This document shows positions 9,746 to 12,774 of a stretch of DNA of 62,830 nt, in pieces. The notes beneath the pieces were generated by a model. The model was not told where the DNA came from. It did not search any database and was given only the letters and a program-made list of their open reading frames with translations. How positions within the stretch are numbered: position 1 is the first letter of the stretch; each line of letters starts with the position of its first letter. This DNA is from Phycisphaeraceae bacterium (GTDB lineage Bacteria > Planctomycetota > Phycisphaerae > Phycisphaerales > Phycisphaeraceae), in assembly GCA_029260655.1 (NCBI GenBank), contig JAJDCU010000017.1, positions 1-62,830 on the forward strand, written 5' to 3'. The translations under genes were made by a program, and so were the position numbers.

Positions 9746-12616
9746 TCAGGTCAGCCCAAGCGCCTGGGCGTCACGGTCCGATAGCATCCCGCCGTCGCTG
9801 CGCTGTTTGACCGTCCCGTCGCGCTTCCACGACCGCTCGCAACGGGGCTCGCTGCGCAGGTCGTCGACCGTCACGGTTTGGACCGAGTCATCGAACGCGA
9901 ACCGGCTGACGCCGCAGAGGTCGGCCAGGTCGGCTAGGTCGAACGACGCACACGCGACATCTTTGATCGCCGGGACACGCACGCCGCAATCAAGGGGGTT
10001 ATCGATCCCCTGCGCCTGACGCGCCTCTTCGATCGACTTTAGCCAGGTGTCGCGGGCTTGCATCAATGCGCCCCAATCCTCGCTGACCGGGATCTGCCGC
10101 ATGCAGTCCACATCCTGAAACGGCAGCAGGTGTACGCAGTCATCCCCGTTGCCCGTCAGCGCACGCCAGGCCTCGTCGGCGGTGTGCGGTAACAGCGGCG
10201 CGAGCAGGCGGATCAATACGGTCGCGGCGCGGTAGAGCGTGGACTGAGTCCTGTGTCGGCGCGGGCTGTCGGGCGCGTCGCAGTACAGCCGGTCTTTCAG
10301 GGCCGTGAGGTACACGGAGCTGAGCGTGTCGTTGCAGAAGTTAAATAGCGCCTCGTGAGCCTTGCGGTATTGGAAGCCGTCGTACGCCGCCAAAACGGTA
10401 TCCGACACCTTTGTCAGCTCGCGGGTCATCCAGGCGTCGATGCTGGTGGCGTCGGCGTCCTCGAAGTGGACTTTCTCCTGCTTGAAGTTGAAGCCGTCGA
10501 GGTTGCTCAAGAGGAACCGGATCGTGTTGCGGACCTTGCGGTACTCTTCGCCGGCGAGGCGGAAGTATTCGGGGTCGACCTTGATGTCGTTGTCGCTGTT
10601 CAGCGAACTGACCCACCAGCGGCAGACATCCGCGCCGTAGTCTTTCAAGAGTACGTCCACATCCAGCGCGTTGCCGCCGGACTTGGACATCTTTCGGCCT
10701 TCACGATCGACCATGAACCCGTGGGTTAGCACCGAGGTGAACGGCGGCTTGCCCTGTGATCCCAGGCAAGGCAAAAGCGAGAGCTGGAACCACCCGCGGT
10801 GCTGGTCGGAGCCTTCGAGATAGAGATCGGTGACGGTCGGGGCATCGTCCGGCTTCGCAAGCCCGCGCTGGCGGATCACAGCGTTCCAACTTGAGCCGGA
10901 CTCGAACCAGACGTCGAAGATGTCGGCCCCGGGAACGAGCTTGCTAAGGTCGCATGACTTGGCCCATGGGGGCGCGTCCGTGTCGCCGGCGGGGTCGTAA
11001 TGCTGCAGCAGGTCTTGCGGGGGGGCGAGGAACCAGGCGTCGCTGCCCTTCTCACGAAACAGCTTGGCGACAGCGAGAACGCTGGCGGGTGTGAGCAGGG
11101 GTTCGCCTTCGACACCTTCCGGAGGATAGAACGCCGGGATCGGCAGGCCCCAGGCGCGCTGGCGGCTCAGGCACCAGTCCGGGCGCGATTCGAGCATCCC
11201 GCGCATCCGCTTTCGGCCCCATTCGGGAAAGAAGCGGATGTCGTTGGCCGTGACGTCAAGCGCTCGTTGGCGCATGGCGCCGCCGGAGGATCCCCCCGAC
11301 GACGATCCTACGGCCGATCCCCCGGCAGAGCCGGGGGCTGAGGGGACGGAAAAAGACTTGTTGACGTCCACAAACCACTGCTCGGTTGCGCGGAAGATCA
11401 CCGGGCTCTTGCCCCGCCAGTCGTGGGGGTAGCTGTGGGTGAACTGCTCGGCGTGGAAGAGGTGCCCGCTCTCTCGCAGTTTTTCGACGACAAGGTCGTT
11501 GGCTTTCCACACGCTGACGCCTTGGAGCCAATCAGGGGCGGTGTCGTCGAACGTGCCGTCGTCTTTGACCGGGCAGTAGACATCGAGCCCTTCACGCAGG
11601 CCGGTCTGGTAATCGTCTACGCCGTGGCCGGGCGCGGTGTGGACCAGGCCTGTGCCGTCTTCGAGTGTGACATAGTCGGCGGCGACGACTTTGCTTGTGC
11701 GGTTGATGAAGGGGTGCTTGTATTCGAGGCCGACCAGTTCGCTGCCCTTGCAGGTTGTCTTAGGCTCGGCGTCGGTCTTGAGGACTTTCTTCGCCAACTC
11801 GACCGCGAGGATGAGGGTTTGGCCGTTGACTTCGTATTCGCCGTAGTCGTAGCGCTCATGGACCGCGACCGCGAGGTTGGCCGGGAGTGTCCAGGGCGTG
11901 GTGGTCCAGATCATCAGCGAGCCTTGGCCATCTACCCTATCAAACTTCACAAACACGCTCGTATCTTCCCGGTCGTAGTACTCCAGCTCCGCCTCGGCGA
12001 GCGCGGTCTGGTTTTCGATCGACCAGTGGACGGGCTTGAGCCCGCGGAAGACCACATCGCGCGAGACAAGGTCGGCGAAGACCTCAAGCACCGCGCCCTC
12101 GTAGCGCGGGTTCATGGTCAGGTACGGGTCTGCGTAGTCGGCGAGCGTCAGCAGCCGTTTCATCTGTCCGGTCTGGAGCTTGACGAATTTCTCAGCGTAG
12201 GTCTTGCACTTTCGGCGGACCTGGATCGGCTGCATGTCCTTGGCTTTGTCGCCCAGCTCCTGCATGACCTTGTGCTCGATCGGCAGGCCGTGGCAGTCCC
12301 AGCCCGGGACGTAGGGCACGTCGTACCCGGCCATGGTCTTGGTGCGCACGACGAAGTCCTTGAGGACTTTGTTCAGCAGGTGCCCCAGGTGGATCGACCC
12401 GTTGGCGTAGGGCGGGCCGTCGTGGAAGACGTAGGGCTTCTTAGAGCCGCCCTGCTCGCGGAGCTTTGGGTAGAGCCCGAGCTTGTCCCAGCGTTTGAGG
12501 CTGGCGGGCTCGTTCTGCACGAGGTTCGCCTTCATCGGGAACCCGGTCTTGGGCAGGTTCAGCGTCTTCTTGTAGGTCTTTTTGTCGGCCCGGGGGTCGG
12601 TCTGTTGGTCGCTCAT
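9746..12616 (-). CDS. ileS: Isoleucyl-tRNA synthetase
   Basis: IleRS charges tRNA-Ile and edits misactivated valine. The protein of about 956 residues has the class I signature HLGH (76-79) within GPPYANGSIHLGH and KMSKS near 642-646, plus the CP1 editing domain between them. ATG 12616 is chosen over the upstream TTG. Two oddities stand out. A Gly/Ser/Ala-rich insertion of about 27 residues (near 421-447, between WFVDVNKSF and MRQRALDV) is coded by a copy of an intergenic repeat. The C-terminal zinc knuckle is degenerate, with only one cysteine left in RCERSWKR. The gene is preceded by a leader peptide and terminator, so transcription attenuation is likely. Confidence 0.97.
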   Translation of the reverse strand: MSDQQTDPRADKKTYKKTLNLPKTGFPMKANLVQNEPASLKRWDKLGLYPKLREQGGSKKPYVFHDGPPYANGSIHLGHLLNKVLKDFVVRTKTMAGYDVPYVPGWDCHGLPIEHKVMQELGDKAKDMQPIQVRRKCKTYAEKFVKLQTGQMKRLLTLADYADPYLTMNPRYEGAVLEVFADLVSRDVVFRGLKPVHWSIENQTALAEAELEYYDREDTSVFVKFDRVDGQGSLMIWTTTPWTLPANLAVAVHERYDYGEYEVNGQTLILAVELAKKVLKTDAEPKTTCKGSELVGLEYKHPFINRTSKVVAADYVTLEDGTGLVHTAPGHGVDDYQTGLREGLDVYCPVKDDGTFDDTAPDWLQGVSVWKANDLVVEKLRESGHLFHAEQFTHSYPHDWRGKSPVIFRATEQWFVDVNKSFSVPSAPGSAGGSAVGSSSGGSSGGAMRQRALDVTANDIRFFPEWGRKRMRGMLESRPDWCLSRQRAWGLPIPAFYPPEGVEGEPLLTPASVLAVAKLFREKGSDAWFLAPPQDLLQHYDPAGDTDAPPWAKSCDLSKLVPGADIFDVWFESGSSWNAVIRQRGLAKPDDAPTVTDLYLEGSDQHRGWFQLSLLPCLGSQGKPPFTSVLTHGFMVDREGRKMSKSGGNALDVDVLLKDYGADVCRWWVSSLNSDNDIKVDPEYFRLAGEEYRKVRNTIRFLLSNLDGFNFKQEKVHFEDADATSIDAWMTRELTKVSDTVLAAYDGFQYRKAHEALFNFCNDTLSSVYLTALKDRLYCDAPDSPRRHRTQSTLYRAATVLIRLLAPLLPHTADEAWRALTGNGDDCVHLLPFQDVDCMRQIPVSEDWGALMQARDTWLKSIEEARQAQGIDNPLDCGVRVPAIKDVACASFDLADLADLCGVSRFAFDDSVQTVTVDDLRSEPRCERSWKRDGTVKQRSDGGMLSDRDAQALGLT
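11319..11347. repeat. Repeat arm inserted in frame inside ileS
   Basis: The sequence TCCCCCGGCAGAGCCGGGGG and its extension CTGAGGGGA match, with one or two changes, the right arm of the intergenic inverted repeat at 27657-27684. On the coding strand it encodes PSAPGSAGG within the linker-like insertion of IleRS. The element is itself a palindrome around CCCCCGGC/GCCGGGGG. Confidence 0.8.
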
Positions 12617-12636
12617 GGCTGTCTCTTGTGTCAACG

Positions 12637-12664
12637 AAAAAAGCCCCGCCTTTTCGGCAGGGCT
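12637..12664 (-). terminator. Attenuator terminator in the ileS leader
   Basis: Read on the minus strand, AGCCCTGCC (12664-12656) pairs with GGCGGGGCT (12650-12642) as nine pairs with one G-U. The loop is GAAAA and a run of six T follows. It ends 20 bases before the ileS start codon and 32 bases after the leader-peptide stop, which is the position of an attenuator rather than of an ordinary gene-end terminator. Its 5' arm can also pair with 12690-12695. Confidence 0.85.
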
Positions 12665-12695
12665 CTTGGGATTGATCGTGTGGGGATCGCCTGCC

Positions 12696-12758
12696 CTACC
12701 GGGTTCCGGGAGAGTGAATGAGGGTTATGGCGATGCTAATGGGCAATTCGGCGCTCAT
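12696..12758 (-). CDS. Isoleucine-rich leader peptide controlling ileS
   Basis: A 20-codon frame reads MSAELPISIAITLIHSPGTR and ends in TAG. Four isoleucine codons (ATT, ATC, ATA, ATT) fall within eight codons, using all three Ile codons. The start codon lies 11 bases after a perfect TATAAT, so the message would be almost leaderless, and no ribosome binding site is seen. The stop is followed by two alternative RNA pairings. ATCGCC at 12734-12729, inside the Ile codons, pairs with GGCGAT at 12691-12686. GGCAGG at 12695-12690 pairs with CCTGCC at 12661-12656 in the terminator arm. These two overlap and exclude each other. A ribosome waiting for Ile-tRNA would free the second pairing and allow ileS transcription. 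This is inference from classical attenuation. Confidence 0.75.
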   Translation of the reverse strand: MSAELPISIAITLIHSPGTR

Positions 12759-12768
12759 GTTGGTTGGC

Positions 12769-12774
12769 ATTATA
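12769..12774 (-). promoter_or_regulatory. -10 box for the ileS leader
   Basis: A perfect TATAAT reads on the minus strand (12774 to 12769). The hexamer 17 bases upstream (TTCCGC) is a poor -35. Expected initiation near 12760 leaves almost no untranslated sequence before the leader-peptide ATG. Confidence 0.6.

Follow-up and report, generated by a model that had tools for sequence, protein, structure and literature searches.

In a 62,830-nt stretch (nt, nucleotides) of contig JAJDCU010000017.1 (hereafter, the window) from the Phycisphaeraceae bacterium of assembly GCA_029260655.1, whose genome is coded G000 below, the ileS gene is preceded by a confirmed leader that consists of a near-leaderless, isoleucine-rich open reading frame (ORF) and a terminator with a competing pairing at the end of the ORF. 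Comparison with relatives makes it very probable (roughly 0.9) that this leader controls ileS through ribosome-mediated transcription attenuation in response to the supply of Ile-tRNA (transfer RNA), with the antiterminator formed around the leader stop codon. The leader combines an ORF whose repeated amino acid matches the gene, an intrinsic terminator and an antiterminator that excludes it; that the ribosome can cover the antiterminator strand is deduced from position.

All elements of the leader lie on the minus strand. The -10 box TATAAT (12769..12774) is followed, after a gap of 10 nt, by the ATG (12758) of a 20-codon ORF, MSAELPISIAITLIHSPGTR (12696..12758), that ends at a TAG stop codon (12698-12696). 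Four Ile codons, ATT (12740), ATC (12734), ATA (12728) and ATT (12719), fall within eight codons of this ORF (12717..12740), and all three kinds of Ile codon are used. The hexamer, the ORF, its Ile codons and their coordinates are as the initial annotation had claimed, and the 10-nt gap fits the near-leaderless peptide that it had proposed, given a start of transcription next to the ATG. Two pairings compete downstream. The first, also predicted in that annotation and recovered by computation, joins strand 1, AUCGCC (12729..12734), which overlaps an Ile codon, to strand 2b, GGCGAU (12686..12691), with a duplex energy of -10.1 kcal/mol. The second joins the antiterminator strand CGGUAGGGC (12693..12701), with the UAG stop codon inside it, to GCCCUGCCG (12655..12663), that is, to the 5' arm of the terminator, GCCCUGCC, plus the next G; the duplex is worth about -19.8 to -20.2 kcal/mol. 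A second pairing had been predicted in the register 12695-12690/12661-12656; the pairing exists, but that register is only an alternative; the CGGUAGGGC/GCCCUGCCG register, shifted a few bases upstream, is preferred because it is the one conserved in relatives. The terminator with a 5' arm that also pairs elsewhere was likewise found (12665-12637): a hairpin of GAGCCCUGCC, GAAAA and GGCGGGGCUU (12641..12665; -19.7 kcal/mol) and a run of six U (12637..12642) that ends 20 nt before the ATG of ileS. The gene itself (9746..12616, stop codon 9748-9746) encodes an isoleucyl-tRNA synthetase of 956 residues (804 bits with TIGR00392; cut-off 621.4). Only 1 of 200 shuffled versions of the 169-nt leader region folds better (z -2.44).

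The ileS gene was identified in 61 genomes, the window's own among them, and 60 of its upstream regions were usable (the truncated L063 was dropped beforehand). The Ile-rich frame and the terminator, whose loss from close relatives the initial annotation had named as a point against the leader, are kept in all six genomes of the genus. Among the 36 usable upstream regions of the family, 18 carry an Ile-rich ORF with CGGTAGGG (GGCAGGG in one, L019) immediately after it and a CCCTGCC terminator, and one further leader (L057) was found in another family of the order. Within the genus, the variable sites of the leader fall on the third codon position in 10 cases, the second in 8 and the first in 4, a mild synonymous excess only. 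Chance was gauged on 140 upstream rows (60 from relatives and 80 from named loci; 126 distinct), using 700 first-order Markov sequences and the 140 opposite strands as controls. An Ile-rich ORF together with a terminator occurs in 30 of the 140 rows (24 of the 126 distinct ones), compared to 1 of the 700 simulated sequences and none of the opposite strands, although five of the 30 positive rows represent other architectures (L049, L050, L052, L133, L174). The Ile-rich ORF alone is also commoner than by chance, being present in 40 of the 140 ileS upstream regions, compared to 24 of the 700 Markov sequences and 14 of the 140 opposite strands.

A covariance model, R1, trained on 20 ileS leaders and given no structure other than the terminator, was searched against 397 genomes of the class. 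It returned 41 matches at E <= 1.1e-6, all of which were read: 31 precede cimA, 9 precede ileS and 1 precedes thrS. Seven of the nine ileS matches are training sequences, leaving 34 independent matches (31 at cimA, 2 at ileS and 1 at thrS). The genes were named from sequence motifs (31 being of the citramalate synthase type), with confirmation by hidden Markov model (HMM) for the window's genome. Of 11 further matches up to E 6e-5, nine were read (7 at cimA and 2 at thrS), the partial G335:C87 and G290:C260 being left out; weaker matches (E 6e-5 to 0.05), many of them terminator-only, were not counted as attenuators. Citramalate synthase, the product of cimA, makes a precursor of isoleucine; thus, training on one gene of the isoleucine economy led the model to the other. 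The window's genome itself carries a second, unlinked Ile leader (G000:C15:8998-9115; L094, 399-516) with the peptide MSHAAAIIIGIAIQTSHR before a cimA gene that scores 637 bits with TIGR00977 (cut-off 450), and four genomes of the family (G020, G031, G034, G035) have the leader at cimA and none at ileS.

The ileS and cimA elements were combined in an alignment of 60 sequences, with the three thrS elements (L104, L111, L113) left out, that was fitted to the terminator and not to the antiterminator. In the terminator, 98.1% of the cells are paired and four pairs are changed on both sides; in the antiterminator, 91.1% of the cells are paired; in neither case did any of 500 shuffles reach the observed value. 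The outer pair of the antiterminator is G-C in 19 sequences and C-G in 17, and the last codon of the ORF switches accordingly between Arg CGG and Gly GGG. When the strands of each leader were paired with their own and with other partners, in 15 of the 20 ileS leaders (five members of the genus left out), the antiterminator (helix 2:3) favoured its own partner at p 0.014. Isoleucine accounts for 276 of the 1154 residues of the 60 leader peptides; 5 or 6 codons separate the last Ile from the stop in 42 of the leaders; the stop is TAG in 55 and lies inside the antiterminator in most rows; and a run of at least five T is present in 56 elements.

The position of the promoter is conserved as well: a TATAAT-like hexamer (at least 5 of 6 positions) with a gap of 6-10 nt to the ATG precedes 38 of the 60 aligned leaders, compared to 15 of 3000 random windows from the same loci. 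With the -10 box so close before the ATG, transcription is expected to start at the leader AUG or within a few bases upstream of it. In PMC5397173, the one planctomycete covered is grouped with species that have few Shine-Dalgarno genes and signals of leaderless messenger RNA and/or S1. The disfavoured Ile codon, ATT, predominates among the sensor codons: the Ile codons of the 60 leaders are ATT in 166 cases, ATC in 97 and ATA in 13, compared to ATC in 113, ATT in 5 and ATA in 3 in six ORFs of the window, the latter coming from one genome and the leaders from many. Sequence and comparison together establish the leader, its Ile bias, the competing pairings, the terminator, the position of the -10 box and the association with the gene.

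From these features we infer the start site, the translation of the leader and the stalling of the ribosome, the kinetic race between the two structures, the default state of naked RNA and the direction of regulation. Transcription would start at or just before the leader AUG, so that a ribosome would load near the 5' end. When charged tRNA-Ile is plentiful, the ribosome would reach the UAG and cover CGGUAGGGC, the terminator would form and transcription would stop before ileS. When charged tRNA-Ile is scarce, the ribosome would stall at the Ile codons, 7 to 14 codons ahead of the stop, leaving CGGUAGGGC free to capture GCCCUGCCG once that strand is made; the terminator would come too late and ileS would be transcribed. 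The AUCGCC/GGCGAU pairing would oppose antitermination when no ribosome follows. Folding of 59 of the 60 sequences, modelled with an assumed footprint of 10 nt downstream of the A-site codon, is in part compatible with this scheme. With the ribosome on the best Ile codon and the 5' arm of the terminator complete, the mean antiterminator probability is 0.89 (above 0.5 in 55 of the 59 leaders; 0.76 for the worst Ile codon), and with the ribosome at the stop the terminator reaches 0.95. Over the 59 leaders, full-length RNA with a ribosome stalled at the last Ile gives the terminator a mean probability of 0.37.

Several observations weigh against an attenuator of this kind. Half of the usable ileS upstream regions of the family (18 of 36) are without the element, L015 being degenerate, with two Ile and no GGTAGGGC, and the T-run is shorter than five in 4 of the 60 elements. 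A simple consensus scan listed neither the promoter nor the terminator of the window and found no promoter-like site with both hexamers, and the case was therefore built on conservation. The excess of covariation in the antiterminator of the 60-sequence set resides chiefly at one pair, neither the number of pairs nor that of pair types in that set exceeds the shuffles, and for the 20 ileS leaders alone 71 of 500 shuffles are as high, that is, there is no clear excess. For helix 1:2, the own-versus-other comparison gives p 0.058, and this helix is therefore not claimed as proven; its best duplex ranges from -5.1 to -19.6 kcal/mol over the 20 leaders and is weaker than 2:3 in the window. In the fold model, the absence of the antiterminator with the ribosome at the stop is built in, the strand being masked (probability zero by construction). 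In naked RNA, and contrary to the textbook scheme, the antiterminator is favoured (mean probability 0.64, above 0.5 in 39 of the 59 leaders; 0.88 in the window). Strand 1 therefore provides no firm default, and the 1:2 step of the classical scheme is uncertain; in the window, lack of translation may, in this model, give read-through rather than termination. Finally, in full-length RNA stalled at the last Ile, the terminator of the window wins at equilibrium (probability 0.99), so timing must decide the switch, and antitermination in the window needs a kinetic trap. The attenuator architecture that had been proposed for this leader is thus supported by its conservation and by the unlinked cimA copy, whereas its 1:2 pairing is too weak at equilibrium for a firm untranslated default.

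Leaders with a similar build and other amino acids precede other genes. In the window's genome, thrS, named by HMM, has a Thr leader, MLNTTPTTTTTMTTTTTTGTPGGRAVVC (L219, G000:C21), and leuA, likewise named, has a Leu leader, MNHRNATIFANKLAGLLLSLELMARAG (L241, G000:C41); in both, a terminator follows and its complement lies at the end of the ORF or just short of it, and the two antiterminators differ in bases, each having a sequence of its own. Upstream of four further genes with PF00587 in this genome (L223, L229, L233, L237; starts guessed), no such leader was seen. Thr leaders are found at thrS in G018, G041 and G050 but not in G010, and leuA has a Leu leader in G010 and G018. At hisG, a His leader was seen in G050 (L292) and in none of the four other genomes examined. 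In these five genomes, neither leuS nor the PF00133 gene of about 550 residues showed a leader (in two genomes, no start was found for the latter). Outside the class, five of six full-length matches were read (G612:C227 left out) and include one hisG with a His-rich leader (L195, G771) and two leuA-type genes with Leu leaders; L195 and L196 were named by HMM and L199 by motif only. The other two matches read, L197 and L210, do not resemble these leaders and seem to be unrelated.

In four of five genomes, valS is preceded by a short Val leader of another build. These leaders (L264, L265, L266 and L267; for example, MSATPHISSVAVS and MSFGQRFIPLSVAVA) end at TGA, followed by a GGGG(A/C)..GACCCCC-like or related sequence, and no U-run was seen in any of them. 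A second type of ileS leader is present in other families (L049, L051, L061, L158, L174, L191, L041-L043, L045): some are Ile-rich (..I.I.IT.P(H/R)*) and others have one or two Ile only; the stop is usually TGA, followed by GGCGG or GGGGC, and the GC-rich hairpin mostly has no U-run. Taken together, we favour, with moderate confidence, the broader view that Phycisphaerae, and perhaps Planctomycetota, run a regulon of near-leaderless attenuators of about 125 nt (at ileS, cimA, leuA, thrS and hisG, and, as the second type, at valS and ileS). In these attenuators, the antiterminator would include the end of the ORF (for ileS and cimA, the stop codon), the Ile sensor codons would mostly be the rare AUU and not AUC, and one signal, the charging of tRNA-Ile, would couple synthetase supply with isoleucine synthesis.

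Among the alternatives to transcription attenuation, the one that survives best, albeit with a slight chance, is that the same leader acts mainly through translation coupling, through Rho or through a trans-acting small RNA released by termination. Trans-acting leader transcripts exist, as described for rnTrpL of Sinorhizobium meliloti (PMC7298713), and the U-run is mostly missing from the second-type ileS leaders and the valS leaders of relatives, which leaves room for other read-outs in the class; against this, the hairpin is kept throughout the 60 aligned elements, with nearly all cells paired and the T-run retained in 56. Somewhat less likely still is that the leader senses not uncharged tRNA but a ligand, through stalling on the nascent peptide, or an antibiotic, as in erm-type leaders. 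The recurrent Pro..Arg-stop pattern at the end of the peptide in the family would suit such stalling; however, the Arg codon CGG is accounted for by the RNA pairing, the last residue elsewhere being Gly (GGG) with a compensating base, the Ile clusters are kept while other residues vary, and the leuA, thrS and hisG leaders swap the repeated amino acid to match the pathway. That the hairpin simply ends transcription of the gene upstream, or terminates early and constitutively, with an incidental Ile-rich ORF, is no easier to credit: the gene upstream of ileS encodes a sigma-54 response regulator on the same strand, after which a terminator would be ordinary, but the hairpin comes after a -10 box and an ORF of its own and stops 20 nt short of ileS, the ORF, the Ile bias and the complement at the stop codon recur at the unlinked cimA, and chance yields an Ile ORF with a terminator in 1 of 700 sequences.

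Enterobacterial attenuators are also known for leu and ilvGMEDA, and the attenuator leaders of Escherichia coli have a 5' untranslated region with a ribosome binding site. The ileS leader shares with the amino-acid attenuators of enterobacteria, such as those described for trp and his in PMC1183508, the ORF with regulatory codons, the alternative 1:2 (of uncertain role), 2:3 and 3:4 pairings and the U-run terminator. It is unlike them in being near-leaderless, in having the stop codon inside the antiterminator strand and in its location at ileS and cimA. To our knowledge, there is no sequence relation between the two. The pheST operon of E. coli is a synthetase locus under attenuation. The uORFC-8-2 motif places cysS of Rhodobacterales under an attenuator (PMC8632094), and candidate trpS and leuS attenuators are reported from Streptomyces (PMC1262725). 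As proposed for ileS, the synthetase in each of these cases is controlled by codons for its own amino acid; they concern other amino acids and other phyla, whereas the ileS element is shared with cimA, the comparison being by description and not by sequence. Because synthetase attenuators are known elsewhere, the placement on ileS is less unusual than the initial annotation implied. For trpL of S. meliloti, PMC7298713 likewise describes an attenuator transcript whose first bases are the ATG of the leader ORF. That case differs in the amino acid (Trp) and the host, an alphaproteobacterium, and the start site of the ileS leader is placed from the promoter position only.

In Firmicutes, ileS is usually under T-box control. 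T-boxes at ileS are also reported for Actinobacteria (PMC1262725). The T-box has the same target gene and responds to the same signal, the charging of tRNA-Ile, but reads the tRNA directly, without translation. In line with the initial annotation, no T-box was found here: RF00230 has no match at E <= 5 in the window between 8000 and 18000 and none in G000, and in none of the 61 genomes is the Rfam cut-off exceeded. A lone T-box-like match below the cut-off (L293, G033:C155:80-351; 75.1 of 93 bits) comes from a 66% complete genome and could be contamination. A search with Rfam models of the window between 8000 and 18000 (E <= 5), the stretch covered, gave four matches, all to unrelated families and below the gathering score; a T-box or other known riboswitch was accordingly rejected.

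Leader genes near start codons in Planctomycetes are discussed as a matter of translation reinitiation in PMC4833913. Our literature search retrieved neither an Ile attenuator at ileS or cimA nor any amino-acid attenuator of Planctomycetes, in agreement with the earlier impression that no Ile leader of such a kind had been described in the phylum; the survey of Lopatovskaya et al. (2010) may contain cases. The mechanism proposed here would be classical attenuation; what appears to be new is a sequence family of its own, the near-leaderless build and the regulon.

These leaders offer a concrete and apparently widespread mechanism for a phylum for which the literature search found no amino-acid attenuator, and they add ileS and citramalate synthase to the genes that are apparently under ribosome-mediated attenuation. 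They also form a natural near-leaderless series that allows direct comparison of specificities for Ile, Leu, Thr and His. The cell organisation of planctomycetes has long been debated; if the proposed mechanism is true, it would imply close coupling of transcription and translation in these bacteria.

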